Part shown: positions 2,937-57,774 of the stretch, in pieces
How the letters are laid out: every line of letters begins with the position of its first letter
Numbering within the stretch: the stretch's first letter is position 1
Assembly (NCBI RefSeq): GCF_002095435.2
Contig: NZ_MJEJ02000044.1
Span: 62,001 to 126,000 of the forward strand
DNA length: 64,000 nucleotides
Origin: Williamsia sp. 1138
Lineage (GTDB): Bacteria; Actinomycetota; Actinomycetes; Mycobacteriales; Mycobacteriaceae
Reading direction: 5' to 3'
Position numbers and translations under genes: made by a program
The notes under the pieces: model-generated
Database searches by the model: none
What the model was told of the DNA's origin: nothing
The model's input: the letters and a program-made list of their open reading frames with translations, nothing else

Positions 2937-3338
2937 ATGGTCTTCGCTGCCCGACTCCTCATCAATGCCGTCGCCATCTGGATCGCCGCCGCGCTCGTCG
3001 GTGGCATCTCGATCGCCACCGACGGTCGCGACACCGCTGCCCAGATCCTGGTGGTGCTGTTCATCGCCCTGGTCTTCACCATCGTGAACACCGCGATCAA
3101 ACCGATCGTCCAGCTGCTCTCGCTGCCGCTGCTGATCCTGACCCTCGGCCTGTTCACCCTGGTCATCAATGCGCTGATGCTGCTCTTGACGGCGTGGGTC
3201 ACCGAAACCACCGACTTCGGACTCAGCGTCGACGGCTTCTGGACCGCGATCTGGGGTTCGATCATCATCTCGATCGTGAACTTCCTGCTCGGCGCGCTGG
3301 TTCCCGACCGGGATCGCGACGACCGCCGATCCCGATGA
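2937..3338 (+). CDS. Phage-holin-4-like / YvlD-family integral membrane protein
   Basis: 133-aa, very hydrophobic protein with about four predicted membrane helices (MVFAARLLINAVAIW, ILVVLFIALVFTIVN, LLSLPLLILTLGLFTLVINA, then a C-terminal helix ending NFLLGALVP) and a charged tail RDRDDRRSR. It resembles the YvlD/mycobacterial phage-holin family; physiological role unknown, and the name does not imply a prophage. ATG 2937 was chosen over an in-frame upstream ATG because TACGAT (2924-2929) lies 7 nt before it and no Shine-Dalgarno is present, suggesting a leaderless mRNA. Its TGA lies inside the palindrome at 3331-3398. Divergent from hisD. Confidence 0.8.
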   Translation: MVFAARLLINAVAIWIAAALVGGISIATDGRDTAAQILVVLFIALVFTIVNTAIKPIVQLLSLPLLILTLGLFTLVINALMLLLTAWVTETTDFGLSVDGFWTAIWGSIIISIVNFLLGALVPDRDRDDRRSR

Positions 3339-3398
3339 TGGGTCGTTGTGGCGGAATCGACCTGCGGTTTTGTTCGCCACAAGGACCCACTATCGGGG
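3331..3398. repeat. Long intergenic palindrome, copy 1, between convergent genes
   Basis: Left arm CCCGATGATGGG..TTGTGGCGGAA pairs with right arm TTCGCCACAAGGACCC..TATCGGGG, with few mismatches. The whole convergent intergenic region is this element: it supplies the last Arg codon and TGA of the gene on the left, and its right end touches the TAA of the gene on the right (3399-3401). It is homologous, in inverted orientation, to the element at 57708-57774. It could act as a bidirectional terminator, or be a small dispersed repeat. Confidence 0.85.
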
Positions 3399-4439
3399 TT
3401 ACAAGGTCGAGTTGTCGATGACGAAGCGGTAGCGGACGTCGGAGGCGACGACGCGCTCGTAGGCTTCGTTGATCTGATCGGCCGCGATGACCTCGATCTC
3501 CGCACCGATGTTGTGTTCTGCGCAGAAGTCGAGCATCTCCTGCGTCTCGGCAATCCCGCCGATCATCGAACCGGCGAGGGAGCGGCGGTTCGCGACCAGA
3601 GAGAAAGCCCGTACCGAGATTGGCTTCTCGGGCAGACCGAGTTCAACGAGAGTCCCGTTGATGGCCAGCATCGACATGTACTTGTTGATGTCGAAGTTCG
3701 CCGAGACGGTGTTGAGGATGAGGTCGAACTTGCCGCGAAGTGCTTTGAAGGTGTCGGGATCGTCGGTGGCGTAGTAGTTGCTCGCACCGAGACGGAGCCC
3801 GTCTTCCATCTTTTTCAACGACTGCGAGATCACACTGACCTCGGCACCCATCGCATGGGCGATCTTGACTCCCAAGTGTCCCAGACCTCCGAGCCCGATG
3901 ATGGCAACGCGCTTACCCGGGCCCGCACCCCAATGGCGCAGAGGAGAGTAGGTGGTGATGCCGGCGCACAGCAGTGGGGCCGCCACGTCGAGGGACAGCG
4001 AGTCAGGGATCCGCAGGACGTAGTTGGCGTCGACCACCACTTCCTGGGCGTAGCCTCCGGTGGTCGGTTTTCCGTCGGCACCGATTGCGTTGTAGGTGCC
4101 GACATTCCCCTTCTCGCAGTACTGCTCCTGGCCCAGCAGGCAGGGTTCACATTCGCGGCAGGAGTCGACGAAACATCCCACGCCTACCCGGTCCCCGACC
4201 TGGTACTTGGTGACCTCGGAACCGATCTCGGAGACGGTGCCGGCGATCTCATGACCAGGTACGACGGGGTAACGGGTGCCACCCCACTCGTCGCGCGCTG
4301 TGTGGATGTCGCTGTGACAGATGCCCGCATACGCAATGGCGATGCGTACGTCGGCCGGGCCCACGTCGCGCGTCTCGATGGTGGTCGGAACCAGAGCTTC
4401 GCTCGCAGACGGCGCGGCGTAGGCATTGATGGTCGGCAC
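3399..4439 (-). CDS. adhC: Zn-dependent NADP alcohol dehydrogenase (AdhC/cinnamyl-alcohol dehydrogenase type)
   Basis: 346-aa medium-chain dehydrogenase, probably reducing aldehydes with NADPH. Catalytic-zinc ligands are visible as C41 in GICHSD and the H63-E64 pair in VVPGHE. The structural zinc uses the four Cys of the block 94-108 ([16 protein letters not shown]). The Rossmann motif is GLGGLGHLG. The closest family is the YahK/mycobacterial AdhC group. The start is GTG 4437-4439 with GGAGG 9 nt upstream. It stands alone, convergent with the membrane protein; the 122 bp upstream contains several near-palindromic ATATG/CATAT steps (about 4494-4512) that may be regulatory. True substrate unknown. 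Confidence 0.88.
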
Positions 4440-4561
4440 GTGTTCTTACCTCCGAAAATCGGGTGGGGTGGGCGGAACCGCCGAAGTCAAGCCTACATAC
4501 GCATATGAGCATGGCTAATGATTGCGAGATGTGCCACAACGCGGAATAACGCGGTCTGCTG

Positions 4562-5428
4562 CTACTCGCCGACCCAGTCGAACCCGACGTCCAGGGCGGT
4601 CACCGAGTGGGTGAGACCCCCGACCGCCAGGTACTCGACGCCGGTCCTGGCGTAATCCTGCGCGACGTCGATGGTGAGCCCACCGGAGCTCTCCAGTTTC
4701 GTCGACGGAGACTTCGCATTTCGGCGCTGCACTGCCATCTGCGTCTGCCAGAGTGGAAAGTTGTCCAGCAGAACGAGTTCGGCGCCCAACGCCAGGGCTT
4801 CGTCGAGTTGCTCGAGACTGTCGACCTCGACCTCACACGCGATGTCGGGTGCCGCCGCTCGCACCGCGTTCAGCGCCGCCGTGACCGATCCTGCCGCTGC
4901 GACGTGGTTGTCCTTGATCAGCGCGGCGTCGCCGAGACCCATGCGATGGTTGTGACCGCCCCCGCACCGCACCGCGTACTTCTGCAGTGAACGCATGCCT
5001 GGCAACGTCTTTCGCGAGTCCCGGATCTGCGCCTTCGTATCGGAGACCTCCGCGACCCAGAGGGCCGTGGCGCTCGCGATACCGGACAGGTGGCACAGCA
5101 GGTTCAGTGCCGTGCGCTCGGCCACGAGTAAACCGGCAACCGGGCCGCGCACAGTGGCCACCGCCGTGCCGGGTTCGAGTTCGGCACCGTCCTCGAGTCG
5201 GTCGAGTACCTCGTACTCGCCAGAACCGACGACGGCGTCGAAGACCTCGAGCGCCACGTCGAGGCCCGCCAGCACACCGTGCTGACGACTCGACAGCACC
5301 GCAGTCGCCACCGCTCCGGCGGGAACCGTTGCGGCCGTGGTGACGTCGGGTCCGTAACGCAGGTCCTCGTCGAGGGCGGTCGCGATCAGGGTCGCAACCT
5401 CTGCAGAGCCGGCCGGGTTGCCCGTCAC
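4562..5428 (-). CDS. nadC: Nicotinate-nucleotide pyrophosphorylase (carboxylating)
   Basis: Converts quinolinate and PRPP to nicotinate mononucleotide, CO2 and PPi in de novo NAD synthesis. The 288-aa product has the diagnostic [37 protein letters not shown] and the acidic strand [12 protein letters not shown] start (5426-5428) overlaps the nadA TGA as GTGA, so it is translated directly after nadA. nadB, which sits between these genes in Mycobacterium, is absent. Confidence 0.96.
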
Positions 5429-6444
5429 TCCCCCGTCCCGGGGGTGCCGATCTCGATCATCCGCTGCACACTCAGCTTTGCCCGCGCAGCAACATCGGGT
5501 GCCACGTGGACCTCGTCTTTGCCCTCACGCAGGCAGCGCAGCAGTGCGGCCGGGGTGATCATCTTCATGTAGGGGCACGAGGCGCGATCGTTGACGGCCT
5601 GGAAATCGACGTTCGGCGCAGCCTTGCGCAATTGATGCAGCATCCCGACCTCGGTCGCAACGAGAACCTGTGTCGCACCTGTCTCCCGCGCGGCGTCGAG
5701 CATGCCTCCGGTCGAGAGGATCTTCACCTTGTCGGCAGGAACGAAACCCTCACCGGCGAGGTAGAGAGCCGACGTGGCGCAACCACATTCGGGGTGGACA
5801 TACAGTTCGGCGTCGGGATGCGATTGCGACTTGGCAGTGAGTTCGTCGCCGTTGATCCCGGCGTGAACGTGGCACTCGCCTGCCCAGATCTGCATGTTCT
5901 GCCGACCTGTGACGCGCTTGACGTGGGCACCGAGGAACTGGTCCGGCAGGAACAGCACCTCTTTGTCGGGATCGATCGAGTTGACGACGTCGACTGCGTT
6001 CGACGAGGTGCAGCAGATGTCGGTCAGACCCTTCACCTCGGCCGTCGTGTTGACGTACGAGACGACCACCGCATCGGGGTACTCCGCTTTCCACGCTCGC
6101 AGGTCGTCGGCGGTGATCGAGTCGGCGAGTGAGCAGCCTGCCCGCTCGTCCGGGATCAGGACGCGCTTGTCCGGGCTCAGGATCTTGGCGGTCTCCGCCA
6201 TGAAGTGAACGCCGCAGAAGATGATCTCGTCGGTCTCGGCCTCTGCCGCGATACGCGACAAGGCGAGGGAATCGCCCACATGATCGGCGACGTCCTGAAT
6301 GGCGGGCAACTGATAGTTGTGGGCCAGCAGAGTGGCGTTGCGCTTCTTGGCGAGGCTTTTGATCTCGGCAAACCATTCGGGTGTCGGCTCGACCCCGGTG
6401 TAGGCGGGTTCGGTTGACCCGAGCGTGAGTGACGTGGTGGTCAT
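5425..6444 (-). CDS. nadA: Quinolinate synthase A (4Fe-4S)
   Basis: Condenses iminoaspartate with dihydroxyacetone phosphate to quinolinate. The 339-aa protein includes AHNYQ near residue 41 and three conserved cluster-ligand candidates: C104 (AGCSLAD), C220 (HPEC) and C290 (CPYM). I use ATG 6442-6444 because AGGAGG lies 8 nt upstream; an in-frame extension to 6783 would cross the regulatory region. It heads a two-gene nadA-nadC operon divergent from a Nudix-type regulator, with a palindrome between them (6503-6527) as probable operator. Its substrate iminoaspartate must come from an enzyme encoded elsewhere, since nadB is missing here. Confidence 0.95.
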
Positions 6445-6502
6445 GACAACCACCTCCTGTTCGTGGCGCCGGTCAATCGTCGGCCGGCCTGGGATTGGGC
6501 TG

Positions 6503-6527
6503 GGTTTTCGACTGTAGATCGAAAACC
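6503..6527. promoter_or_regulatory. Candidate operator for the Nudix-type NAD regulator
   Basis: Perfect inverted repeat GGTTTTCGA-N7-TCGAAAACC between divergent nadA and the regulator gene, about 59 nt before the nadA start. Location and symmetry fit repression of nadA-nadC by the neighbouring regulator; the binding is inferred. Confidence 0.65.
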
Positions 6528-6633
6528 TGCCACGATCGTAGCACTGGACGGTGTGGGGGCGATCACCCGACAGCGCGCCGGCAGGAACTCGGCTGGTCAG
6601 GCGCGGGCCGACTATGCCACTACACTCGCAGCC

Positions 6634-7329
6634 ATGCCCGCTCAGAGTGTCCTTCACGAGGTCCTCTGCGCCGTGTTCCAGGTTCGTGAACACCACCTCG
6701 GCCAAGCCCCCCAACTCTCGGTGCTCCTGTGGCAGCGCGCGTATGACCCGCAGGCCGGTTCGTGGTCGCTGCCAGGTGGACACCTTCGTGCCGACGAAGA
6801 CCTCAGAACGTCAGCGCTTCGTCAACTCGCAGACAAGGTCGACGTCCGAGAGGTCGCCCACCTCGAACAGCTGACCGTGTTCTCTGCGCCCGATCGTGTC
6901 CCCGGTCCGCGGGTGATCGCATCGTCGTACCTCGGCATGGTGCCCTCGGATTCGCGACCGAACCTGCCACCCGACACACGCTGGCACCCGGTGTCACTGC
7001 TGCCTCAGATCAGCTTTGACCACAGCACGATCATCGAGCGGGCGCGATCACGACTCGCCGCGAAGCTGTCCTATACGAACATCGCGTTTGCGCTCGCGCC
7101 ACCCGAGTTCTCGATGTCGGCCTTGTCCGATATCTATTGCGCTGCACTGGGTTACCCGGTCGATTCGACGAACCTGTTGCGCATCCTGTCGCGCCGCGGC
7201 GTGATCACCGCGACCGGGACGGTTGGCCGAACGGGACCGAGCGGCGGACGGCCCCCAGCGTTGTATCGGTTCGCCGACAATCGACTACGCATCACCGACG
7301 AGTTCGCGACGCTACGTCCGCCTCCCTGA
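6634..7329 (+). CDS. Nudix-related transcriptional regulator of NAD synthesis (NrtR/NdnR type)
   Basis: 231-aa protein with an N-terminal Nudix-like fold ([28 protein letters not shown]) whose Nudix box is degenerate, so it probably binds a nucleotide ligand such as ADP-ribose without hydrolysing it. The C-terminal half ([30 protein letters not shown]) is the winged-helix typical of NrtR. In Corynebacterium glutamicum the related NdnR represses nadA-nadC, and this gene is divergent from the same pair. ATG 6634 was chosen: TACACT (6621-6626) sits 7 nt upstream, suggesting a leaderless mRNA, and the longer frame upstream runs through the operator. Confidence 0.88.
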
Positions 7330-7339
7330 CCATCCCGAT

Positions 7340-7423
7340 CGTGCCCTTCCAGGCGCCGACCGTGCCGTTCCCGCCGTCGAGCGTGCCGTTGCCGACGCCG
7401 AACGTGCCGTTGAGAGCACCAAG
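7340..7423 (+). repeat. 21-bp tandem repeat array A (4 units)
   Basis: Four consecutive 21-bp units start with CGTGCC; the first ends CGCCGAC and the others diverge at their 3' ends. Read in one plus-strand frame they give heptads of the kind ADRAVPA-VERAVAD-AERAVES. No ribosome-binding site or convincing gene covers them. The region lies between convergent regulator genes. The unit resembles the repeat inside the bioF-bioD junction. Confidence 0.85.
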
Positions 7424-7456
7424 CACGAGCCCGGCCGTTGTCGGCAACGGACGGGG

Positions 7457-7561
7457 GCCCACTCGACGTCCACAAGAGCCCGGTCGACGCACGTAACGGC
7501 CCGGTCGACGCACGTAACGGCCCGGTCGATGTCCAGAAGGGCACGCTCGACAGCAGAAGGG
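7457..7561 (+). repeat. 21-bp tandem repeat array B (5 units)
   Basis: Five 21-bp units. Units 2 and 3 (7478-7498, 7499-7519) are identical and begin GCCCGGTCGACGCACG; units 1, 4 and 5 are diverged. Same period as array A but a different consensus. All frames are open because of the period and GC content; one plus-strand frame gives GPVDARN heptads. It ends 8 bp before the marR stop codon. The identical units suggest recent expansion. Confidence 0.88.
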
Positions 7562-7568
7562 GGTTACG

Positions 7569-8006
7569 TCACTCGACCGTTCCTCGTCGACTGGACCCCT
7601 GTGTCACCTTGTCCAGCAGTTCGGCCAGAGTCGAGAGTTCTTCCTCTGTAAGAACTTCGAAAGCCGACGGCGCGGGGTCACCGATCGATCGGACGGAATC
7701 GAGGAGTTCACGCCCGGACCCGGTCAGCGACACGATCTTCGTCCGGCGATTGCCGGGGTCGACCTTTCTGTCCACCAGTCCACGCTCGGCGAGATCGTTG
7801 ACGGCGACGGTGGCAGCAGGAGCGTCGAGCGTTGCCGCGGCCGCCAACGCCTTGACCGAGCGCGGGCCGTCGTCGAGCCTACTCAGGACCCGAAACCTGC
7901 TGAAAGGCAGTCCACTTCGTTCGATCACTGCTCGGCGCCAGGTATCGCGATTACTGTGCACGAGCGACGCCATCACGTGCCAGACCTCGTCTCGGCGGTC
8001 ACTCAT
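7569..8006 (-). CDS. MarR-family transcriptional regulator
   Basis: 145-aa protein with a MarR winged helix: the recognition region is SVKALAAAATLDAPAATVAVNDLAERGLVDRKVDPGNRRTKIVSLT, the last part being the wing. The ATG (8004-8006) lies inside the 3' end of the exporter gene (8-nt overlap), so the two are co-translated. It probably represses the exporter operon and is released by a drug-like ligand; a candidate operator covers the exporter start region. Confidence 0.9.
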   Translation of the reverse strand: MSDRRDEVWHVMASLVHSNRDTWRRAVIERSGLPFSRFRVLSRLDDGPRSVKALAAAATLDAPAATVAVNDLAERGLVDRKVDPGNRRTKIVSLTGSGRELLDSVRSIGDPAPSAFEVLTEEELSTLAELLDKVTQGSSRRGTVE

Positions 8007-9492
8007 GTGTGCTCCCGCGAGCGCGCCCTGTCAGGGTGGGTTGAATGATCGGCTCCTCGTCCGATTCGGCGAACAACGTGGCAACCCGCCGCGTGGTGCG
8101 CGCCGACGCCGCAGTCGTCGAGTAGAAGCCGAGTGCGGCGATGCCGAGGGCCAACCCCACCGCAACCCACCACAGCGGAGCCATGTCCCCCACCGAGCCT
8201 GCTGAGTTCGCATCTGCGGCGATCACCGATCCGGCAAGCGTTCCCGACAACGCGACGCCCAGGCTGATCCCGACCTGGCGGCTGGTCGACGCGATGGCCG
8301 AGGCGGCACCGGCTCGATCTCGCGGCATCCCACTGACCGCGGCCGTCGTGATCGGTGCATTGACCATGCCGAAACCGATACCGAACACGCCGAACACCAC
8401 CAGCAGTTGCCAGTTGGGGGTGTATTGGTCTAGTCGGGTCAGGGTGGCCGACGCCACCGCCAGCAGCAATCCGGCGATCACCAGCGAGGGTCGCGTCCCG
8501 TACTTGCCGACCAGACGCCCCGACAGTGGTGAGAACACCAGGGTCCCGGCAGCAATGGGAAGGAACATCAGCCCGGTCTGCACCGGCGAGTAGTCGCGAA
8601 CGCTCTGCAGGTAGATGGACATCATGAACAGGAAGGCGCCGTAGGCGGCAAAGGCGAACACGCCGGTGATCGTCGCCGCCGCGAACGGAACACTCCGGAA
8701 GAACCGGAGCTCGATGAACGGTTCGTCGCGGCGTAATTCATAGCGGCAGAAGGCCGCGAACGCCACGATCGCGACGGCGAAGATCGCGATGGTGCGCGGA
8801 TCGGTCCAGCCCAATCCCGGCCCCTCGATCAAGCCAACGATCATGCCGACCATGAAGACGATCGCCAGTCCCTGCCCGATGGGATCGAGCCCCCGGACCG
8901 TCGCCGACTTCGATTCGGGCACGACGAGCGCCGTCGCGACGAGGGCGACCAGACAGATCGGCAGGTTGATCCAGAACACCGACTCCCAGCTGAAGGAGTC
9001 GATGAGCAGGCCACCCACGATCGGACCGAGGGCCATCGAGATCCCGACGACCGCTCCCCAGACACCCACTGCCCTCGCTCGCTCCACGCGGCCGGGAAAT
9101 GTCTGCGTGATGATCGACATCGCGACCGGATTGAGCATGGACCCACCGACCGCCTGGAGTAACCGGGCGGCGATGAGCACTTTGACGTCGGGCGCCAGAC
9201 TGCACAACAGCGATCCGAGCGCGAAGGTACCCAACCCGATCTGGAAGATCCGACGTCGGCCGAAGCGATCCGCCATCGTCCCCGACAGCAACAGCAGGCT
9301 CGCCAGTACCAGGGTGTACACATCGATGACCCATTGCAGCTGGGACGGGGTTGCGTCGAAATCGCTACGGATGGACGGGATGGCGACGTTGACGATGGTG
9401 GCGTCCATCGACACGATCAGCAGACTGAGGCAACAGGTCGCCAGGATCGCGACCTTACGGCGCGGACTGAGCGTGCCTGTAGTTGAGTTCAC
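7999..9492 (-). CDS. MFS drug exporter, DHA2 (EmrB/QacA, 14-helix) family
   Basis: 497-aa inner-membrane proton antiporter. Motif A is visible as GTMADRFGRRR after the second helix, motif D1 as SMDATIVNVAIPSI in helix 1, and motif C as GVWGAVVGISMALGPIVGGLL in helix 5. About 14 hydrophobic segments can be counted. GTG start (9490-9492). It forms a two-gene operon with the downstream marR gene, so its expression is likely self-regulated by that protein. Substrate unknown; the family exports cationic dyes, disinfectants and antibiotics. Confidence 0.92.
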   Translation of the reverse strand: MNSTTGTLSPRRKVAILATCCLSLLIVSMDATIVNVAIPSIRSDFDATPSQLQWVIDVYTLVLASLLLLSGTMADRFGRRRIFQIGLGTFALGSLLCSLAPDVKVLIAARLLQAVGGSMLNPVAMSIITQTFPGRVERARAVGVWGAVVGISMALGPIVGGLLIDSFSWESVFWINLPICLVALVATALVVPESKSATVRGLDPIGQGLAIVFMVGMIVGLIEGPGLGWTDPRTIAIFAVAIVAFAAFCRYELRRDEPFIELRFFRSVPFAAATITGVFAFAAYGAFLFMMSIYLQSVRDYSPVQTGLMFLPIAAGTLVFSPLSGRLVGKYGTRPSLVIAGLLLAVASATLTRLDQYTPNWQLLVVFGVFGIGFGMVNAPITTAAVSGMPRDRAGAASAIASTSRQVGISLGVALSGTLAGSVIAADANSAGSVGDMAPLWWVAVGLALGIAALGFYSTTAASARTTRRVATLFAESDEEPIIQPTLTGRARGSTHE

Positions 9493-9517
9493 CTAACTAT
9501 TGTGAAACTACAACTAT
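9476..9517. promoter_or_regulatory. Candidate MarR operator/promoter of the exporter operon
   Basis: Around the exporter start, TGTAGTTGAGTTCAC and GTGAAACTACA face each other across a short centre containing TAACTATT, and CAACTAT follows. The GTAGTT/AACTAC half-sites are symmetric and AT-rich relative to the surroundings. Binding by the co-transcribed MarR protein is inferred. Confidence 0.45.
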
Positions 9518-9533
9518 CGCCGCGGCAAGGCAC

Positions 9534-10121
9534 TCAGCTGTGCGATGGCTCACTGGGAGTCGAAGCGAGGGCCGTCGAACCATCGGTGAGCGAGGTCGGG
9601 TGGCCGAGATCGGCCTCTCGATTCATCACCACGAGCAGAAAGTACGTCACCAATGCGGTGAGGGGCGCGACCACCAGCAACACCCACGACATGCTCAGCC
9701 CGCCCAATGTGTCGAGATGTGCGCCATCGATCCGAAGAGTGGGCGGTTGGGTGAACTCACCCCCTACCGGAACGCCATCCCGACCTGGAAAACGTTGCCG
9801 CGCAACAGCGTCGCCCACCCATACCGCGACAATTCCCGCCGCAACTGCGCCGGCCGACAACCCGACCACTCCGAGGGGGCCGCGCAGCGCGGGCGGGTAC
9901 CAGAACACGATGGCCAGGACGACACCCGCAGCAAGGGCAAGGCAGAAGAATCGCGCGATCGCGCCGAACTCGGCCGTCGCATCGCCGATGGCGACCGCCC
10001 GGCCGCCCTCGACGACCCGCCCTTCGATGCCCGGTGTGAGCAGGGCCCAGACAATGCCCCAGATGATCCCGGTCGCCGCCACGCCCACGACGGCGAACAG
10101 CCCGGACCGGCCACTGCTCAT
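9534..10121 (-). CDS. DUF2567-like membrane protein of the biotin operon
   Basis: 195-aa protein with four hydrophobic segments (LFAVVGVAATGIIWGIVWALL, FFCLALAAGVVLAIVFWY, VVGLSAGAVAAGIVAVWVG, WVLLVVAPLTALVTYFLLVV) and a hydrophilic Ser/Thr-rich tail. Same position as the M. tuberculosis membrane gene after bioB and Rv1590 (Rv1591). The ATG (10119-10121) overlaps the bsaP stop as ATGA, so a longer in-frame start upstream is rejected. Function unknown; it is the last gene of the biotin operon. Confidence 0.78.
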   Translation of the reverse strand: MSSGRSGLFAVVGVAATGIIWGIVWALLTPGIEGRVVEGGRAVAIGDATAEFGAIARFFCLALAAGVVLAIVFWYPPALRGPLGVVGLSAGAVAAGIVAVWVGDAVARQRFPGRDGVPVGGEFTQPPTLRIDGAHLDTLGGLSMSWVLLVVAPLTALVTYFLLVVMNREADLGHPTSLTDGSTALASTPSEPSHS

Positions 10122-10369
10122 CAACGTTGTGTCAGCTCCACGGAATCGACGGTACCGTGCCGCGTACAGCGGGCGGACCAGCCGTCGGGGCGCACCTGTA
10201 CCACCATCCGCCGTCCGCATTGACCGCAATAGCGCGGCGGCTCCAACCCCAATTGCGCTGCGCGCGGTATGGACTGCGGGTCTTCGACATCGAGTTTCAC
10301 CCCGGTGTACACCCCGAACACCAACGGTGTAGCCAGCGGTGTCGGGATGTCACTCACGAGTGGGCTCAC
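10121..10369 (-). CDS. bsaP: Biotin synthase auxiliary protein BsaP
   Basis: 82-aa protein directly after bioB (2-nt gap), start GTG 10367-10369. It has Cys at 48, 51 and 68 in [29 protein letters not shown]. It is the equivalent of M. tuberculosis Rv1590. In mycobacteria this small iron-sulfur protein is reported to support BioB turnover, probably by helping rebuild the sacrificial 2Fe-2S cluster that donates sulfur. The Cys pattern and position support the call; the role here is by homology. Confidence 0.85.
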
Positions 10370-10371
10370 GC

Positions 10372-11385: not shown

Positions 11386-11420
11386 GTTGGGCCTCCCTCT
11401 CGTCATGACACTTTGCGGTC

Positions 11421-12205: not shown

Positions 12206-12206
12206 G

Positions 12207-13349: not shown

Positions 13350-13418
13350 CGGATTCACTGCCAAAGAGCGTCTCACAGGCCACGTTGTCGCCTCTCACCC
13401 ACTACGGCTGCCGGACAC

Positions 13419-31435: not shown

Positions 31436-31442
31436 TCGAAGA

Positions 31443-31511
31443 CAAACCCAGCCAGAGCAGGGCACAACCGGGTGCTGCAGCACCTGGTTTTGCCTGCTCT
31501 GGCTGGGTTTG
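31443..31511. terminator. Long near-perfect palindrome between the ABC and Mce operons
   Basis: CAAACCCAGCCAGAGCAGG pairs with CCTGCTCTGGCTGGGTTTG, and the centre GGTGCTGCAGCACC is itself palindromic; the 69-nt structure has only isolated mismatches. It lies between convergent genes and ends 6 nt from the Mce-associated stop codon. A bidirectional terminator is likely, although no U-tract is visible. Confidence 0.8.
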
Positions 31512-42794: not shown

Positions 42795-42862
42795 CAAACG
42801 CTCCACAAATACGAGCACGCTCCACATATTTGTGGAGCGTCCTTGTATTTGTGGAGCGTTTG
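42795..42862. terminator. Nested palindrome with four copies of one 9-bp word
   Basis: CAAACGCTCCACAAATAC (42795-42812) and its exact complement at 42845-42862 form an 18-bp stem. Inside lies a second hairpin, ACGCTCCACA-TATT-TGTGGAGCGT (42817-42840). CGCTCCACA or its complement thus occurs four times, so alternative pairings (14 bp between the first and third copies) are possible. It touches the ilvA stop (42863-42865) and lies 3 nt after the treZ stop. Confidence 0.88.
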
Positions 42863-44233
42863 TCAGGTCAGGTATCGGTACGCGGGTGATCCCGGTTCGA
42901 GCCGCTCGCAGATCAACCGTGAACTGTTCATCCGGTCCAGGAGCGGACTCAGTCCACCGGGTGCACCGAGTTCGACGCCGACGAGGGCGGCGCCGGTCTC
43001 GCGGTTGTTGCGCTTGACGTACTCGAACAAGGTGATGTCATCGTCGGGACCCAGCACCTCGTTGAGGAACCCCCGCAACGCGCCGGGCTCCTGGGGGAAG
43101 TCCACCAGGAAGTAGTGCTTGAGCCCACGATGGACCAGCGACCGTTCGATGACCTCTCCGTAACGGGACACGTCGTTGTTCCCACCTGACAGCAGGCACA
43201 CGACCGTCCACCCCGGTTCGATGGGCAGATCCTCGAGGGCGGTCACAGCGAGCGCTCCCGCGGGTTCGGCGATGATGCCCTCGTTCTGATACAGCTCGAG
43301 CATCGCCGAACAGATCGCGCCCTCATCGACGTGAGTGATGTGTACGGAGCCGGCAGGCAGCTTCTCGTGGCCACGATGGACAGTGGCCGACGGCGGTAGG
43401 TCCGGATGCGCAGCGACCGTGGCACCGGCCTGCGACATCACCTGATGCCCGAGTCCGCCGATCCGTTTGACCGCGGCTCCGTCGACGAAGGGATCGATGC
43501 CGCTCAGGGTGACCGGTCCCCCGTCGACCAGCGCTGCAGACAACGACACCGCGCCGGTCGGCTCCACACCGACGATACGAACCTGATCGCTCAGCGAACG
43601 GAGGTAGGTGGTCATGCCTGCGATCGCGCCGCCACCGCCCACCGGGACGATGACCAGATCCGGCAGCTGACCCAGTTGCTCCACGATCTCTTTCGAGATC
43701 GTTCCCTGGCCTGCGGCGGTGCGGGTGTCGTCAAAGGCATGGATCCACGTCGCACCGGTCTCGAGGACGTCGGCCTGCGCGGCCGCCGCCGCCGCGTCGT
43801 AGGTGTCTCCCACCGAGATCAACTCGACGAACTCTCCGCCATGCCAACGGATCCGGTCACGCTTTTGCTTCGGAGTGCTGGTGGGCACGTAGATCCGGCT
43901 TGTGATCTTCATGGTGCGGGCCGCGTAAGCCACACCCTGAGCGTGATTCCCGGCGCTCGCGGCCACCACCCCGGCCGCCCGTTCGGCGTCGGTCAGCATG
44001 GACATCACGTTGTAGGCGCCGCGGATCTTGTACGACCGCACCGACTGCAGATCCTCGCGCTTGAGATACACCTGAGCACCCGTCGCCGCGGACAGACGCT
44101 CCGAGATCTGGAGCGGAGTCGCGACCACCACACCGCCAATCCGCTTGGCCGCCGCGTCGATGGCGGCGGCGTCCAAAGCAGCGCTCACGTGCGATGTGGT
44201 GGTGGCGGAGTCGACCGGCTGTCCTGTAGTCAC
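42863..44233 (-). CDS. ilvA: Threonine ammonia-lyase (biosynthetic)
   Basis: PLP enzyme deaminating threonine to 2-oxobutyrate, first step of isoleucine synthesis. The 456-aa protein has the cofactor lysine in SYKIRGAYN, SAGNHAQGVAYAAR, the phosphate-binding PVGGGGAIAGM, and LLSGGNNDVSRY. A C-terminal ACT-like domain (about 360-456, HYFLVDFPQEPGALRGFLNEVL) suggests feedback control by isoleucine. GTG start. Same neighbour as in M. tuberculosis (nitroreductase, Rv1558). Confidence 0.93.
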   Translation of the reverse strand: MTTGQPVDSATTTSHVSAALDAAAIDAAAKRIGGVVVATPLQISERLSAATGAQVYLKREDLQSVRSYKIRGAYNVMSMLTDAERAAGVVAASAGNHAQGVAYAARTMKITSRIYVPTSTPKQKRDRIRWHGGEFVELISVGDTYDAAAAAAQADVLETGATWIHAFDDTRTAAGQGTISKEIVEQLGQLPDLVIVPVGGGGAIAGMTTYLRSLSDQVRIVGVEPTGAVSLSAALVDGGPVTLSGIDPFVDGAAVKRIGGLGHQVMSQAGATVAAHPDLPPSATVHRGHEKLPAGSVHITHVDEGAICSAMLELYQNEGIIAEPAGALAVTALEDLPIEPGWTVVCLLSGGNNDVSRYGEVIERSLVHRGLKHYFLVDFPQEPGALRGFLNEVLGPDDDITLFEYVKRNNRETGAALVGVELGAPGGLSPLLDRMNSSRLICERLEPGSPAYRYLT

Positions 44234-49888: not shown

Positions 49889-49987
49889 GATCTCCCCTAT
49901 CGGCCCGCGGGCATCGTGCTCGAGTCGCGCCCCGCATGGTCTGTGCCCATCCGTCTCGTCGATTTCTAGGGGACACCCTATAACGAC

Positions 49988-50671: not shown

Positions 50672-50676
50672 CGAGG

Positions 50677-51603
50677 CTAACCGGCCCGCAATTCGTCCAG
50701 CGCGTGCTGGAGATCGGCGGGGTACGGACTGGTGAACTCCACCAGTCGACCATCGGACGGATGAGCGAACGACAGCGCGCGGGCGTGCAGCCATTGGCGC
50801 TCCAGCCCCAACCGCTTGGAGAGCACCGGATCGGCACCGTAGGTCAGGTCACCGCAGCACGGGTGATGCAGGGCAGAGAAATGCACCCGGATCTGATGGG
50901 TCCGGCCGGTCTCGAGATGGACGTCGAGCAGGCTCGCGGAACGGAACATCTCGACCGTGTCGTAATGGGTGATGCTCGGCTTTCCCGTGGCGGAAACCGT
51001 GAACTTCCAGTCGTTGCCGCGGCTGCGGCCGATGGGTGCATCGATGGTCCCACTCGGAGGATCGGGATGCCCCTGCACGATCGCGTGGTACCGCTTGTCG
51101 ACGGTCCGCTGCTTGAAGGCCCGCTTGAGCAAGGTGTAGGCCCGCTCGGAGACCGCCACGACCATGACCCCGGAAGTCCCCACATCGAGGCGATGCACGA
51201 TGCCCTGTCGCTCCTGGGAACCCGACGTCGAGATCCGGAAACCCGCGGCGACGAGCCCGCCGATCACGGTCGGTCCCGTCCAGCCCACCGACGCGTGGGC
51301 GGCCACCCCGACCGGTTTGTCCACGACCACGATGTCGTCATCGGAGTAGATGATCTCCATGCCCTCGACCGGCTGGGCCTCGATGGTGAGGACTCGGGCG
51401 GGTGCGGGCAACAGGACATCGAGCCACTGACCGCCGACCAGCTTGTGCGACTTACCGACCGCGACACCGTCGACGCTGATGTCCCCGTCGTCGGCCAGCG
51501 TGGCCGCCACATTTCGGGAGAGACCGAGCAGTCGTGCCACCCCGGCATCGAGACGCATGCCCTCGAGCCCCTCGGGGATCGGCATGGATCGTGCTTCGCG
51601 CAT
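50677..51603 (-). CDS. RluD-family 23S rRNA pseudouridine synthase
   Basis: 308-aa enzyme converting uridines to pseudouridine in large-subunit rRNA. An N-terminal S4 RNA-binding domain (about 15-70) precedes the catalytic domain with [11 protein letters not shown] and the catalytic Asp in HRLDVGTSG, then [11 protein letters not shown]. The ATG (51601-51603) overlaps the lspA TGA as TGATG with AGGA 6 nt upstream. Coupled to lspA, as is common in bacteria. Confidence 0.93.
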
Positions 51604-52268
51604 CAATGTTCCTGTCGCTTGCCATCGTCCGAGGCCTCGGACCGTTCGTTCGCCGACGAAGTCGACGAAGTTTTCGACTCCTGAATCCCGGGCTCGTTCG
51701 CCTCCGACTCCGGTGGCGCATTCTTACCGGTGCGGGTGCCGTCGAACTCGAATCCGAACAGCGTCAGACCGACCAGCAGCACCGCACCGCACACGACCGC
51801 CGAGTCGGCGATGTTGAACACCGGCCACCATCCGACGGACATGAAGTCCACCACGTGCCCGCGCAGCGGACCGGGCGCGCGAAAGATCCGGTCGATCAGG
51901 TTCCCCAGCGCACCGCCGAGCACCAATCCGAGGCCCAGCGCCCACCAGACCGAGCCGAGTCGTTTGCTGTACCGGATGATGCCCACCACCACCGCGAGGG
52001 CGACGATCGTCAGGATCCAGGTGTAGCCGGTGGCCATCGAGAAGGCGGCGCCGCTGTTGCGGACGAGTCTGAAGGTGACGGTGTCGCCGATGATCTCGAC
52101 CGGGTCGCCGGGTTCGATGAGAGCGACGGCGAGAATCTTGGTGATGAGGTCGGCGGTCAACACGACCGCGGCGACGATGAGCAATACCAGCCACATTCTC
52201 GGCCGGGTTCGGACACCGGTCGGGTCGACGGAATCGTCCGCGGCGGCTGGGGTGGGGTCGGTCGTCAC
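51603..52268 (-). CDS. lspA: Lipoprotein signal peptidase II
   Basis: Aspartic membrane peptidase removing signal peptides from prolipoproteins, several of which are encoded in this window. The 221-aa protein has four helices and the conserved blocks [22 protein letters not shown] and FNIADSAV, which hold the two catalytic Asp residues. A cytoplasmic Ser/Glu-rich tail of about 50 residues follows the last helix. GTG 52266-52268 is the likely start; the frame is open further upstream across the divergent promoter. Confidence 0.93.
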
Positions 52269-52307
52269 CTGTCCATCATCCACGATCGGCTCGATACGCT
52301 GGCTGCC

Positions 52308-53294
52308 GTGTCCTCTCCAGCTCCTGCGCGCATCCCCCATCGCCTCCGGATCTCTCGTCTTCTCTCCCCACCCGTCGTGGTCGCCGCGGTGTCCCTGCTG
52401 ACCCTCGGCCTGGCGGGTTGCGGCTCGGACGACGATCAGCCGCCCCCACCGGCACCGACCGGTTGCGCCACCGACTCGACGGCCGGGCAGAGCGCGGCGG
52501 CGCTCCTACCGGTTCCTCCGGCCAAGGTCACCGTCCTCGATCCCGGCCTCGAGCCACGGTCCGTGCCGTCGAGCGGGTTCGACCGCGCAAACGCGCAGTC
52601 CGCGCAGCTGGTGACCACATCCACGTCCTCGTCACCCACCACCGACCGAGGTCCGGCGACAACGGCGACCACCGTGGATCTGCCCTTGACCGCACGGGTG
52701 AACTGCTCTGACGCCACCGATATCGATCTGCGAATCGGGGCTGCCGGGTCACCCGACACCGCCCTCAACCAAGCCCTCAAGGCCCAGGAGGGGTCACGGG
52801 CCGGCATGAGCATCGGGCCCGGCGTCGTCCCGATCTCCCTGCGGATCCTCCCGGGCAAAGACGCCGACGACACCGCAAGGCAAGCCGTGGAGGAGTCGTT
52901 GTTCGCCACCTTCCAGCGGTCGGTGACACTCCCCACAGAACCCGTGGGCGTCGGCGCGCGCTGGGAGGCGGTCCGCACGGTCAACGCCGGCGCAACCGTC
53001 CGGCAGACGATCACGGCAACCCTCACCAAACGGGAGGGTGACGTGCTGACCGTCGATTACAGCGTCGATGAGTCGCCCGTCGACTCCACGTTCCGTCTCC
53101 CCGACGGGGGTGTGCTCACCATCGAGAGCTACTCGATGACGGGTACCGGAACCGTGGTCGTCGACCTGGCCCGCGGCGTTCCTGTGTCCGGGCAGTCGAA
53201 GATCTCGGGCGGGCGCACACTGATCGGGGCCGATGCGAGCCAGCCGTTCAGTCAGCTGCTCGGGTTCGAATCGACCTGGTCGCCAGGACAGTGA
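52308..53294 (+). CDS. Putative secreted lipoprotein of unknown function
   Basis: 328-aa protein with a signal peptide and lipobox LGLAGC (Cys at about 40), then a Pro/Asp-rich start and a Ser/Thr-rich segment. The domain (about 110-328) is rich in beta strands ([48 protein letters not shown]). No family recognised. GTG 52308 has TACGCT (52295-52300) 7 nt before it and no Shine-Dalgarno, suggesting a leaderless mRNA. Divergent from lspA, whose product would process it. Confidence 0.8.
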
Positions 53295-53295
53295 T

Positions 53296-53372
53296 TTCTC
53301 GCCCGGGACACAGACAAGCGGCGGCCCCGCGATCAGATCGCGGGGCCGCCGTTGTAGATCCTCGGGCGAGAA
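53296..53372. terminator. Two-tier hairpin terminator between convergent lipoprotein genes
   Basis: Inner stem GGCGGCCCCGCGATC (53320-53334) pairs exactly with GATCGCGGGGCCGCC (53336-53350). An outer stem TTCTCGCCCG (53296-53305) pairs exactly with CGGGCGAGAA (53363-53372). The structure begins 2 nt after one stop codon and ends 1 nt before the other. Very likely terminates both transcripts. Confidence 0.88.
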
Positions 53373-53373
53373 G

Positions 53374-53898
53374 CTAGCTACTCGCGGGGCACATCGGGCT
53401 CTTGACGTTGGCGCCGCTCAGGAGCAAGCACACGGTCGTCGATGAGAGCTTCCACGTGCCGTTGTCGAAGACGATGAGCGCTTCGACCTGCTGCTGCGGA
53501 GCGTCCGGCAACTGGACCTTGACGTTGGCCTTGGCCTGGTTCGTCCCGGCCGGACGCACCGGTGCGACGATTTCGTAGGTCAGGTCTGGGTTCGCTTCGC
53601 GACCTGCGACGAGCTTGTCGAAGAGCGCCGGATCCTTCTCAGAACCCTCGACGAGTTCGGTCTTCTCCGTCGCCGGGACGTTCGGATCGAGAGCCTTCTC
53701 CAACATCTGGTTGAGAGCGGCAGCCGTCGGCGGCTTCTTGGCGTTGGTCAGGTCACCACCGCCGGTGCTCGTCTCCGAGGACGCGGTCGTGCTGGTCGTT
53801 GTGGTCGGGTCGTCGCTACCGCCGTCGTCGGAACAGGCAGCGATGGACAGAAAGGCGCACACGGCAACGCCGGCGGTCACGAACTTGCGAAACTTCAA
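53374..53898 (-). CDS. MTB12-like lipoprotein antigen
   Basis: 174-aa lipoprotein. Signal peptide and lipobox LSIAAC (Cys about 22), a Thr/Ser-rich linker (about 30-50), then a domain resembling the low-molecular-weight antigen MTB12: LNQMLEKALDPNVPATEKTELVEGSEKDP and VKVQLPDAPQQQVEALIVFDNGTWKLS. Function unknown; secreted or surface-bound. Convergent with the preceding lipoprotein, sharing a two-tier hairpin. Confidence 0.82.
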   Translation of the reverse strand: MKFRKFVTAGVAVCAFLSIAACSDDGGSDDPTTTTSTTASSETSTGGGDLTNAKKPPTAAALNQMLEKALDPNVPATEKTELVEGSEKDPALFDKLVAGREANPDLTYEIVAPVRPAGTNQAKANVKVQLPDAPQQQVEALIVFDNGTWKLSSTTVCLLLSGANVKSPMCPASS

Positions 53899-54045
53899 AA
53901 TCCGTCCTTCTCATTGACACCTCAACACCTCGAAAGTGTGCAGGTGAGATCTGGTCGTCAGGCCGCTGGGGCCATTGGTCCTGCACCACTATGCCAAAAA
54001 CATATGGATTTGACGCGTGCCCACCGTCGGCAGAAGCTATCGAGC

Positions 54046-54978
54046 ATGGTCAAGACGGGTGCGGTGGTGTCGGTCCTCACCACCGGCGGAACGATTGCCA
54101 GTCGTGGATTCGCCGATGGCGCCCGGCCCGACGTCAGTGGCGGCGATCTCGTCGCAGGCGTCGCGCCAACTGACATCGCGCTCCGCGTCCGCGAGATCTT
54201 GCACGTCGACTCGTCGGCCATCCTGCCGACGGATCAGGACGCGATCCGGCTCGCGGTCGACGCAGAACTCGCCGATCCGAACGTCCGCGGTGTGGTCGTG
54301 ACCCATGGCACCGACACCATGGAGGAGACCGCGATGCTCCTCGACCTCATGCATTCCGATCCCCGGCCGGTGATCATGACCGGTGCGCAGCGACCGGCCG
54401 ACTCCCCCGACGCCGATGGCCCCGCGAATCTCTCGGCGGCCATCGCGGCGGCCACGGACGACCACCTCCGGCACCGGGGAGTGCTGATTGCCATGGGTGA
54501 CACGCTGACGCCCGCACGCGGTGCGACCAAACTCGACAGCGGGGCTCCCGCTCCGTTCGCCGCTGTGCGCCCGGATCTGCCCCGCCCGGTACTACCGCCG
54601 ACTTCCATCGCCGGAACGAGGGTGGATCTGCTCGCCCTGTACCCCGGCGTCGACCCGGCCCTGCTCGACTGGAGCGCAGACCGCGGGGCAGCCGGAATCG
54701 TTTTGGCAGCAACGGGTTCCGGCAACACCCACGCCGACATAGTCGACGCGGTGGGGCGGGTCATCGACCGTGGAGTGGTCGTGGTGGTGTGCTCACGGGT
54801 CCCGAAGGGCCACGTGATCGCGCACTATGGAGGTGGCGGCGGTGCCGTCGACCTGGTGAACACGGGGGCGATCATGTCGCCGTGGTTACGCGCATCCCAG
54901 TCTCGGATCGCGTTGCAGGCCATACTCGCAGGCGGCGGTCACGGCCCCGAGGTCGCCGAGTTCTTCGCGACCGAATGA
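54046..54978 (+). CDS. ansA: L-asparaginase
   Basis: Hydrolyses asparagine to aspartate and ammonia. The 310-aa protein has both catalytic blocks: LTTGGTIAS near the N-terminus (nucleophile Thr) and VVTHGTDTMEETA (Thr-Asp pair). C-terminal GHVIAHYGGGGGAVDL is also typical. No signal peptide, so cytoplasmic. ATG 54046 is chosen as it gives the standard start MVKTGAVVSVLTTGG; the frame is open 44 codons upstream but that part looks non-coding. M. tuberculosis has the same neighbour (Rv1538c). Confidence 0.93.
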   Translation: MVKTGAVVSVLTTGGTIASRGFADGARPDVSGGDLVAGVAPTDIALRVREILHVDSSAILPTDQDAIRLAVDAELADPNVRGVVVTHGTDTMEETAMLLDLMHSDPRPVIMTGAQRPADSPDADGPANLSAAIAAATDDHLRHRGVLIAMGDTLTPARGATKLDSGAPAPFAAVRPDLPRPVLPPTSIAGTRVDLLALYPGVDPALLDWSADRGAAGIVLAATGSGNTHADIVDAVGRVIDRGVVVVVCSRVPKGHVIAHYGGGGGAVDLVNTGAIMSPWLRASQSRIALQAILAGGGHGPEVAEFFATE

Positions 54979-54995
54979 CCCCTGCGCTTCCCACC

Positions 54996-56399
54996 TCACT
55001 CCTCCTCCGCCGTCGCCGCTTTCAAGAACTCGTCCGGCCAATCCAGGGTGTGCAGCGAGTCCGCTTCTTCCAGCGCCGGGTCCTCCAGCGCGAAGGTCTT
55101 CGCGAATCCGGGCCCGCTGCTGCGGGTCTCGAACCGAACGGTCACCCGGCCGTGGCCACTGCCCTGCACCCAGCCCAGCCCGTGTTCGGGATGTCGCACG
55201 TCGTTCCCCGTTGACCACCGCAGTCGGTCCGCATCGGGGTTGCGGCCCCCGGGATGGAACGCTGGTTCCGTCGACGACTCGTCGGCGGCGGATTCTGTCC
55301 CCTCGAACTCATCGAGCTCGGGAAACATCGAGAACTGTTGCACCGCGGTCAATCCCGAGTATCCGACCCCGACGAGCCTGATGGGTCCGATCTCCTGGGG
55401 ATCGATCGCCAATCGCTGCGCGGCCGCCGCGAGGACCGGCAACTCGGTGGTGGCCGCAGGCAACGTACTCGAGCGCGTCAACACCGACATGTCCGATTTC
55501 TTCAGCTTGACGACCACCGTCCGCGACCCGCGCCCGTCGCTGAGCAGCCGCCGGTGAGCCGAGGCCGCGGCGCGCTCGACCGCTGCGCGCAGCCGGACCA
55601 GATCGGTGATGTCCTCGGCGAAGGTCGATTCCGCGCTAATCTGTTTGGCCGACGCCCGCTCGGCGACCGGCCGGTCATCCACGCCTTGCGCAAGCAGGTG
55701 CAACCCCGGGCCCACCGTGGCACCCAAGACCGACGACACTTCCACCGGCGACATCCGGGCGAGATCACCGATGGTGTCGATCCCCAACCGCTGCAGCCGC
55801 TCTCCCGCAACCGGGCCGATGCCCCACAGCTTGCGCACCGGCAAGCGCGCGAGGAACTCCCGCTGCTCGGCGGGAGTGACGACGACAACCCCATCCGGCT
55901 TGGCCATGCCGGAGGCGATCTTGGCGATCTGCTTGCCGCTCCCGAAGCCCACCGACGCGGCCAGACCTACTTCATCGCTGATCCGTTTACGCACCCGCTC
56001 CGCGAACTCCCGGGCATCGTCGGCGTCCGCACCGGCCAACTCCGCGGGTTCACCGAACGCCTCGTCGAACGAGAGCATCTCGATCACGGGCACCAATTCA
56101 CGGATGAGGCCGAACACGCGGACACTCACCGCCCGGTAGACCGATCCGCGCGGTGGCAGCACCACGGCGCCGGACCCGACGAGTCGTCGTGCCTGGTGCA
56201 TCGGCATCGCCGAATGTGCACCGAAGACGCGTGCCTCGTAGCTGCAGCCGGCCACGACCCCGCGGCCGCCCAGTCCCCCGACCAGCACTGGGCGGCCGCG
56301 CAGTGTCGGCCGCGTGAGCTGCTCGACGGACGCGAAGAACGCATCCATGTCGATGTGCATCACCCATCGGGAACTACTGTTCCCGTCTTGCTGCCGCAC
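54996..56399 (-). CDS. dinB: DNA polymerase IV, DinX type, with C-terminal SH3-like module
   Basis: Y-family translesion polymerase, 467 aa. Catalytic motifs [13 protein letters not shown] and MLSFDEAF are intact, as are [13 protein letters not shown] and the helix-hairpin-helix region [15 protein letters not shown], followed by the little-finger domain. About 75 extra C-terminal residues contain [28 protein letters not shown], resembling the Tudor/SH3-like end of UvrD helicases. I see no clear beta-clamp motif there. GTG start (56397-56399); AGGAGG lies rather far (15 nt) upstream, so the start is uncertain. Confidence 0.92.
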
Positions 56400-56428
56400 A
56401 AGATCGATGGTAAGCCTCCTCGGCTCTC

Positions 56429-56890
56429 TCAGGTGCGCGGCTGCGCGATCAGTTCGAAGACCGGTATCGATCCAGCTGCGGACAGCAACTCAGCGTCGGT
56501 TGACTTGGCCGTGATCTTGACCGGCATCAATGCCCCGACCTCCCAGCCCCACCGCTTGAGGTAGGGCCGCAGTACAACCGGCTTGTCCTCGAGGGCGACC
56601 TCGAGCGCACGGTAGGTGACTGCGTTCCTGCCACCACGCAAGGCGCAGCTTCCTGCCGCACGGACGTTGCGCGACCACTGGGTGTCGCCGCGTGCGCCGA
56701 TCAGGTAGGTACGACCACCGAGCCGGAGCGGATTGACCGGAATACGTTGCAGATTACCGGACTTGCGTCCCCGGACCTCGAGCGTCCTGGCGCCGGCGAG
56801 CGTGATGCCACGGTCGGCCAGCCAAGCGACGATGCCATTGAAGAAGTGCACGCTCTTGCCGGGGCGGTTGTAGTGGGTCATTGCGGTCAT
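56429..56890 (-). CDS. Deazaflavin/DUF385-type oxidoreductase, TetR-controlled
   Basis: 153-aa small split-barrel protein of the F420-dependent nitroreductase family: [50 protein letters not shown] lies 6 nt before ATG 56888-56890. Divergent from a TetR gene, with two matching palindromes between them, so probably induced by the ligand of that regulator. Substrate unknown. Confidence 0.85.
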
Positions 56891-56918
56891 GGTGGTCTCC
56901 TCGATCGAAAATCAGTTT

Positions 56919-56985
56919 AGAGAGCACTGCTCTCTGATTCGTCGAGTGTGCACCCTCCACCCACAGAAAGCAAGAGCACCGCTCT
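56919..56985. promoter_or_regulatory. Two TetR operators in a divergent promoter region
   Basis: AGAGAGCACTGCTCTCT (56919-56935) is symmetric around its centre. AGAGCACCGCTCT (56973-56985) repeats the core AGAGCACYGCTCT. The two centres are 52 bp apart, about five helix turns, so the sites lie on the same face. They sit between the small oxidoreductase and its divergent TetR regulator. Confidence 0.75.
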
Positions 56986-57006
56986 CGTTTGTGGCACGAT
57001 CGGCAG

Positions 57007-57714
57007 ATGACCGACTCCCCGATCTCCGGACAACCGACTCCACGAGCACAGGCCCGGGCCCGCACGCAGCGACGGATCCTCGAACTAGGTCGTGAACACC
57101 TCGCCACCTACGGCGCGGCCGCGCTGTCCCTGCGCGCCATAGCGCGGGACCTCGACCTGGTGTCCTCAGCGGTGTACCGGTACGTGGCCTCACGGGACGA
57201 CCTACTGACCCTGCTGGTCGTCGACGCCTACACAGAACTCGCCGATCAGGTCCTCGCCGCGCACGCCGCCGCGCCCGCCGACGATGCCCGCGAGCAGTTG
57301 AAACTGAGCTGCCGTGCCTTCCGGGACTGGGCGGTGGCCGAACCGGCCCGGTACGCGCTGCTGTACGGCAGCCCAGTTCCCGGATACCAAGCGCCTGCAG
57401 AACAGACGACCGAACCCGGCACCCGCGTAGTCGGACTCCTCGTGCGGACGTTCGCCGCGGCCGACGAGCACATCGTGTTCGCCTCGCCGGAGGCCGCCGC
57501 CCTGCCGACGCTGGACTTCGACTCGGTCACCCGCGGGTTCGATGTGCAGATGAGCGACGACGCCATGCACGCCGCACTTGCGCTGTGGGCCATCACCGTC
57601 GGGCTCACCAGCCTCGAGGTCTTCGGTCAGTTCGGCGCCGAGCCACCCATCGACCTGTCGGTACTGTTCACCGTGCAGATCGACGGGTTGCTCGACCGGA
57701 TCGGTCTCCGATAA
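57007..57714 (+). CDS. TetR-family transcriptional regulator
   Basis: 235-aa regulator. N-terminal helix-turn-helix: ILELGREHLATYGAAALSLRAIARDLDLVSSAVYRYVASRDDLLTLLV. The C-terminal ligand domain includes FRDWAVAEPARYALLYGSPVPGYQAP, as in TetR members with a WHG-type domain. ATG 57007 chosen over an in-frame ATG six codons upstream; CACGAT ends 6 nt before it, so it may be leaderless. Its TAA lies in the palindrome at 57708-57774. It likely represses itself and the divergent oxidoreductase. Confidence 0.9.
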   Translation: MTDSPISGQPTPRAQARARTQRRILELGREHLATYGAAALSLRAIARDLDLVSSAVYRYVASRDDLLTLLVVDAYTELADQVLAAHAAAPADDAREQLKLSCRAFRDWAVAEPARYALLYGSPVPGYQAPAEQTTEPGTRVVGLLVRTFAAADEHIVFASPEAAALPTLDFDSVTRGFDVQMSDDAMHAALALWAITVGLTSLEVFGQFGAEPPIDLSVLFTVQIDGLLDRIGLR

Positions 57715-57774
57715 TGGGGCCTTCTGGCGAACAAAAGACCAGGTCAGGTCCGCCAGAAGGGCACATTATCGGGG
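57708..57774. repeat. Long intergenic palindrome, copy 2, between convergent genes
   Basis: CCGATAATG..CCTTCTGGCGAAC pairs with GTCCGCCAGAAGG..CATTATCGGGG. It supplies the final Arg codon and TAA of the TetR gene and abuts the ileS stop (57775-57777). Read on the minus strand it aligns over its full length with the element at 3331-3398, including a shared loop GACCTG..TTTTGTTCGCC. In the stem TCTGGCG/CGCCAGA replaces TGTGGCG/CGCCACA, a compensatory pair change. Confidence 0.87.

Follow-up and report, generated by a model that had tools for sequence, protein, structure and literature searches.

The window examined here is a stretch of 64,000 nucleotides from Williamsia sp. 1138 (contig NZ_MJEJ02000044.1, positions 62,001 to 126,000 of the forward strand), and it contains two long, related palindromes, each of which fills a junction between convergent genes. 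These palindromes are probably solo copies of a repeat that resembles the repetitive extragenic palindromes (REPs), and the likely partner of this repeat is a nuclease gene that lies outside the window between two further copies and whose product would spread them. The original prediction, made from the window alone, had offered two readings, a family of bidirectional terminators or a small mobile palindrome that inserts at stop codons or becomes fused to them. The mobile palindrome is favored by the discovery of a cognate nuclease gene with a copy on either side, whereas insertion directed at stop codons is not borne out. The two palindromes and the genes that converge on them are as follows.

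3331..3398, minus strand (the loop strand): family palindrome, copy 1, 89.1 bits with the covariance model
57708..57774, plus strand: family palindrome, copy 2, 83.3 bits with the covariance model
2937..3338, plus strand: gene converging on copy 1, with its CGA-TGA end inside the copy (stop codon 3336-3338)
3399..4439, minus strand: gene converging on copy 1, with a stop codon at 3399 that touches the copy
57007..57714, plus strand: gene converging on copy 2, with its CGA-TAA end inside the copy (stop codon 57712-57714)
57775..61011, minus strand: gene converging on copy 2, with a stop codon at 57775 that touches the copy

The partner gene (G000:C16:1439-2308, identical with L001:1439-2308; G000 is the genome of the window and G001-G008 are the other eight Williamsia genomes) is situated between two family copies about 1 kb apart, the second of which lies 3' of its stop codon. 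Family copies bracket this gene in all nine Williamsia genomes, at one shared locus, and in G000 the left copy has been split by an IS110 element. The encoded protein matches DUF559 (PF04480) with 33.0 bits against a cut-off of 20.6, while a match to the MTES_1575 nuclease remains below its own cut-off. By sequence, the closest solved structure is that of an endonuclease-like protein (PDB 3hrl, E = 0.004), and an AbiEi-like N-terminal match was obtained for all five partners tested. On the basis of sequence, the gene is predicted to encode an AbiEi-like N-terminal part followed by a PD-(D/E)XK nuclease of the DUF559, Vsr-like kind. At other loci, homologues of the partner are bracketed in four genomes of g51 and in one of g18; the gene in G181 seems to be split. 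Among 617 genes in loci of the own genome, two are flanked on either side by family copies at a distance of at most 250 nt, namely the nuclease partner and cobN (L174:238-3849). A gene family that recurs beside the solo copies was sought and rejected, the largest cluster among 182 neighboring genes having four members. A connection with DUF559 genes emerged from the loci of other genera and from paralogues.

Other DUF559-like genes were compared with the partner by aligning locally the 330 nt upstream of each gene with the 330 nt downstream. Of 350 called genes, 68 match the DUF559-like profile, and 48 remained when genes shorter than 450 nt, genes with less than 150 nt of flank and duplicates had been dropped. 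The catalytic residues of the PD-(D/E)XK superfamily are kept in 43-48 of these 48. In 37 of them the flank match exceeds 22.3, the maximum reached by 601 contig genes; a further 107 genes from the same loci, which bring the controls to 708, reach at most 18.1. The match is specific to the gene, since 37 of 48 own flank pairs pass compared with 78 of 2256 mismatched pairs, and the bracketing repeats differ: GCTCCAC, CAAACCCA and CGCGCC palindromes are found, among others, most of them 60-75 bp in length. Of the 11 genes that stay under this threshold, L338, L341 and L344 are flanked by element pairs recognized in another way, and L357 has similar palindromes farther out. In 18 further genomes a gene of the DUF559-like group was called at 29 of 30 loci, and 23 of these 29 genes exceed the maximum of 541 controls measured in the same windows. 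In a sample of 118 genomes from the class, 81 have a match to PF04480; there, 14 of 20 genes could be tested, and with 330-nt flanks 2 of 13 are clear. Both the class-wide loci and those of the further genomes are 30 taken from many more matches. Four other bracketing repeats likewise have solo copies in 885 kb of the own genome. At two junctions (L157 compared with L346, and L092 compared with L351) one species has the family palindrome where another has a DUF559-like gene with other repeats.

Two additional palindromes in the window can be assigned in the same way.

31443..31511, minus strand: palindrome of a second nuclease-linked family (CAAACCCAG), convergent junction
42795..42862, minus strand: palindrome of a third nuclease-linked family (GCTCCAC), convergent junction

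A profile of the repeats that bracket L369, L386 (G002) and L390 (G007) matches window positions 31440-31511 with E = 4e-13, and one made from those bracketing L359 (G000:C26) and L371 (G007) matches 42798-42863 with E = 8e-19. From these profile matches, at least four palindromes in the window belong to three nuclease-linked families. Neither the nuclease partner nor this link was part of the original prediction. A further strong palindrome is present in a convergent junction at 53319-53351 of the window, and a junction palindrome at G000:C41:185594-185666 belongs to, or resembles, the repeats around other DUF559-like genes.

We return now to the two palindromes from which the analysis began. 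Copies 1 and 2 align over their full length when one is inverted, with 53 of 71 columns identical, and the compensatory stem change that had been noted between them (TGTGGCG/CGCCACA in one, TCTGGCG/CGCCAGA in the other) is real. The four strands of the two copies fold at -38.6 to -46.7 kcal/mol (z-scores of -7.3 to -8.5), values equaled by none of 200 shuffles. The hairpin is strong in itself; a run of T residues following it is absent from both window copies, and a search of the window against Rfam returned no family. In the 6.08 Mb of the genome, TGGCGAACAAAA is present 15 times and its reversed control word is absent; taken with the places found by the covariance model, this excludes chance as the source of the window palindromes.

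The 15 copies that carry TGGCGAACAAAA served as the seed of the model. A search of the genome yielded at least 142 matches at E <= 10, each place being listed on both strands, and these correspond to at least about 95 places; the search scored 150 candidates and the counts of places are therefore lower bounds. In 722 kb of loci around the matches at least 96 places were found at E <= 0.05, four of which are interrupted by an insertion sequence (IS). The dispersed element that had been proposed from two copies is consequently a family of repeats of about 68 bp, far more numerous than the window pair. It comprises two subfamilies, CCCGATAATGGGTCSTT... and CCCGATCTTGGTGGGTT..., to which TGGCGA and CAGGTC are common. 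REPs carry a GTAG-type tag at one end; inspection of the aligned copies by eye revealed none. In an alignment of 89 copies, from which seven of the 96 places were omitted as partial, IS-split or below 25 bits, changes on both sides are seen in 14 of 23 pairs. The number of double-change cells is 222, compared with 118 +/- 8 in shuffles (none of 500 as high) and with 33-87 when the partner position was slid as a control. The palindromic form of the element is kept. Paired changes of this kind could also come from template switching between the arms, so that the covariation is not proof of a role as RNA.

Placement of the family is biased towards the 3' ends of genes, above all between convergent genes, as the two window copies had suggested. 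Of the 96 places, 57 are in convergent, 31 in tandem and 8 in divergent junctions. The background in the same loci, which were selected for holding elements, consists of 120 convergent, 399 tandem and 115 divergent junctions, of which 54, 31 and 8, respectively, contain the element. An element is faced by 145 gene 3' ends, and 132 of these fall between -10 and +12 nt from the edge of the model, and 45 of the 57 convergent places show such a fit on both sides. The minus-strand stop codons at 3399 and 57775 touch their palindromes as described. The proposal that the palindrome supplies the stop codon of the plus-strand gene holds for both window copies and fails as a rule, the CGA-TGA position being used at 11 of the 145 facing 3' ends; most stops are at the edge of the element and not inside it. 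In an unbiased contig of 202 kb the window copies are the only two family elements. This contig has 25 convergent junctions, of which 12 have gaps of at most 21 nt or overlap and 13 have gaps of 41-188 nt, several of the latter containing strong palindromes. With 12 of 25 convergent junctions already so tight, there is no support for insertion aimed at stop codons: the close fit needs no targeting, because a harmless insertion into such a junction lands beside the stops in any case. The orientation of the loop with respect to transcription, counted by hand in 29 of the 31 tandem places (two IS-split places were omitted), is the same in 19 and opposite in 10, which is not a clear bias. A role in termination would be compatible with this placement.

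The family is present in all nine Williamsia genomes and in two related genera. When 401 genomes of the Genome Taxonomy Database (GTDB) family were searched, 23 matched at E <= 1e-4 (9 Williamsia, 10 g51, 3 g18 and 1 g27). Earlier candidate hits in G021 and G034 gave no profile match. The g51 copies have an identical loop and a different outer stem. Among pattern matches in named genomes, 36 of 38 are from Williamsia; the other two, in NZ_JNYV01000004.1 (L074 and L084), are labeled Kitasatospora arboriphila NRRL B-24581, a name that is likely to be wrong. A phage or plasmid home for the palindromes was also considered and ruled out, copy 2 having no match in the phages and plasmids collections.

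Comparison of orthologous junctions reveals gain and loss. The copy 1 junction is filled in G000, G001, G002 and G007 and empty in G004, G005, G006 and G008, while G003 lacks a close orthologue of the copy 1 gene. The copy 2 junction is filled in G000, G001 and G007 and empty in G003, G004, G005, G006 and G008. In the orthologous junction of G002 (L238) a remnant, CCGATGATGGGG, precedes the facing stop, as if the remainder had been deleted between GGGG repeats. Orthologous junctions with unrelated sequence, which would have counted against the original prediction, are seen in part, in that the more distant Williamsia are without the element at both junctions; its absence there reflects gain and loss and not absence of the family. 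Over the fetched loci, which are not a random sample, 62 orthologous junctions have the element and 17 do not. The proportion of a relative's elements that share both neighbors with an element of G000 is 9/12 in G001, 15/18 in G002 and 9/12 in G007, as against 6/17 in G003, 1/4 in G005, 1/5 in G004, 2/6 in G006 and 3/8 in G008.

We infer the mobility of the palindromes from the layout, which is like that of REP-associated tyrosine transposase (RAYT) genes between REPs, with an unrelated enzyme. The nuclease would recognize its cognate palindrome, as duplex or as extruded hairpin, and would nick or cut it. Repair might then copy the palindrome, and at times a palindrome-gene-palindrome cassette, into other places. 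Those insertions would survive that lie beside stops between convergent genes, where no gene is harmed, and the surviving palindromes may act as bidirectional 3'-end hairpins with an effect on the ends of transcripts. A more general form of this proposal is that across the Actinomycetes an undescribed class of selfish palindromes has its cognate enzymes in the AbiEi-like/DUF559 nucleases. Each nuclease would recognize its own family, spread solo copies to 3' ends and carry its gene in a palindrome-gene-palindrome cassette, a way of life like that of REP/RAYT which would have arisen independently with a restriction-type nuclease. Towards this wider version we incline only slightly.

Several results weigh against these proposals. 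The partner gene occupies a single locus in all nine Williamsia genomes, the species comparisons did not catch an insertion event, no target duplication was found, and the copies common to near relatives point to long residence. In the covariation analysis, neither the count of doubly changed pairs nor that of pair types exceeded the shuffles (122 and 145 of 500, respectively, were as high). The DUF559-like group is defined by our own iterative profile, and of the members checked, L359, L374 and L383 from Williamsia together with L363, none reaches Pfam DUF559. The 48 genes include orthologues and are not independent; 11 of them have no match in the 330-nt flanks, and 6 of the 29 in the further genomes fail. 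A few DUF559-like genes are bracketed by tandem repeats rather than palindromes; short repeats such as CGCCAGTTGGGCACGTAA are seen at L342, L348, L447 (g18), L367 and L460. The bracketing copies follow no fixed layout, 22 pairs being inverted and 15 direct, an orientation that palindromy makes partly ambiguous. Similarity between repeats shows no significant overall correlation with similarity between proteins (rho = 0.087, p = 0.077). Finally, in the class-wide set with wider windows 6 of 14 genes exceed 22.3 and 3 of 14 exceed 36.3, a score that one of 17 other genes in these loci attained in narrower windows. Because of this control gene, the class-wide claim is the weakest.

A close rival is that the nuclease gene is a homing-like cassette, so that the solo palindromes would be sites of cutting into which the gene inserts by repair, to give palindrome-gene-palindrome, and solo copies would be left by gene loss. 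In homing endonuclease genes the nuclease is the only gene of the cassette and is placed between possible target sequences. Homing is favored by our single-gene cassettes between two copies and by the two junctions at which a nuclease gene in one species takes the place that a solo palindrome has in another. In both of these, however, the solo palindrome and the repeats around the gene come from different families. Moreover, solo copies number about a hundred for a single gene of this type, and the arrival of solo copies at new junctions would not be explained. We therefore judge a homing-like cassette to be unlikely.

The other reading in the original prediction was that the palindromes are selected as bidirectional terminators or 3'-end stabilizers; recombination would then have dispersed the family passively, with the nuclease genes merely insulated by the same hairpins. 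The placement at 3' ends (132 of 145), the convergent bias, the stable folds, the covariation and the positions conserved in relatives are all to be expected on this basis. It is harder to reconcile with distant Williamsia that are without any element at the same junctions, with the 8 of 96 places between divergent genes and with a conserved loop sequence, which is unnecessary for termination; nor does insulation predict matching repeats specific to each nuclease gene. Selection for termination thus seems unlikely, slightly more so than homing.

Much less probable is a miniature inverted-repeat transposable element (MITE) or REP moved by an ordinary transposase, of the DDE or Y1 type, that has not yet been seen. 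The size, palindromy and placement do resemble those of REPs, but a RAYT partner is ruled out by the absence of the Y1/RAYT transposase domain (PF01797) from all nine Williamsia genomes, compared with its presence in 5 of 14 control genomes, and the 182 genes beside the copies form no recurring family, DDE families not having been searched singly. AbiEi-like proteins are DNA-binding regulators, and the idea that the palindromes are their autoregulatory operators, to which the N-terminal match in 5/5 partners lends itself, is the least credible of all given a second copy 3' of the gene's stop codon and solo copies at 3' ends, with 8 of 96 places between divergent genes.

The palindromes have in turn a parasite of their own. 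An IS110 element (recombinase match NF033542, E = 4e-54) is found at 10 contig ends of G000, including L001:1-1320 (G000:C16:1-1320), and in four of the five left flanks and four of the five right ones it has entered the left arm of a family palindrome, at one and the same position. The whole element was not found in the other eight Williamsia genomes. Candidate bridge-RNA guides in its left end, TGGGTCCT and CCAAAAG, match the target and are suggestive only, the match being not significant, as 6% and 14% of shuffles give matches just as long. According to the account in PMC11208160, IS621 of the IS110 family likewise has a single insertion point within a palindromic repeat, the REPs of E. coli; host and repeat differ here, and IS110 is a parasite of the palindrome and not its partner.

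If the nucleases do spread or keep the palindromes, a common protein of unknown role would gain a function, and many unexplained hairpins between actinobacterial genes would gain an origin. The nuclease and its likely target would be readable from a genome by what brackets the gene, and each enzyme-palindrome pair could be tested directly in vitro. REP-like repeats would moreover have two unrelated enzymatic origins, which would make the logic of REP and RAYT testable as a case of convergence. No description of a pairing between DUF559-like nucleases and palindromic repeats was found in the openly licensed literature, including the accessible portions of PMC12907096, PMC3733652 and PMC12915292, and this looks like an undescribed repeat-and-enzyme pair of the selfish kind.

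Comparison with known systems helps to place it. A difference from homing endonuclease genes is that here some hundred dispersed palindromes are without a gene. VsrA of Caulobacter has a DUF559 domain of the PD-(D/E)XK superfamily as well; it is linked to the repair of deaminated methylcytosine, and repeats are not mentioned in the accessible text of PMC12907096. A close parallel is REP/RAYT (TnpA_REP; PMC2817692, PMC8266576), where short palindromes are likewise dispersed at gene ends, here in at least 96 places. REP/RAYT systems also have an enzyme gene between two repeat copies, as in all nine Williamsia genomes, several enzyme-repeat pairs per genome and IS110-type insertions into the repeat. 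The differences are that the enzyme is a predicted PD-(D/E)XK nuclease with an AbiEi-like part and not a Y1 transposase, that the palindromes are 60-75 bp long with a loop of about 21 nt, that the bracketing copies are not always inverted, and that they are without the GTAG-type tag (GTAG and CGTC tags are named in PMC3733652). By analogy, then, we are probably dealing with a partnership of the REP/RAYT type that has been built on an unrelated nuclease and that would mobilize its palindromes in a comparable way.

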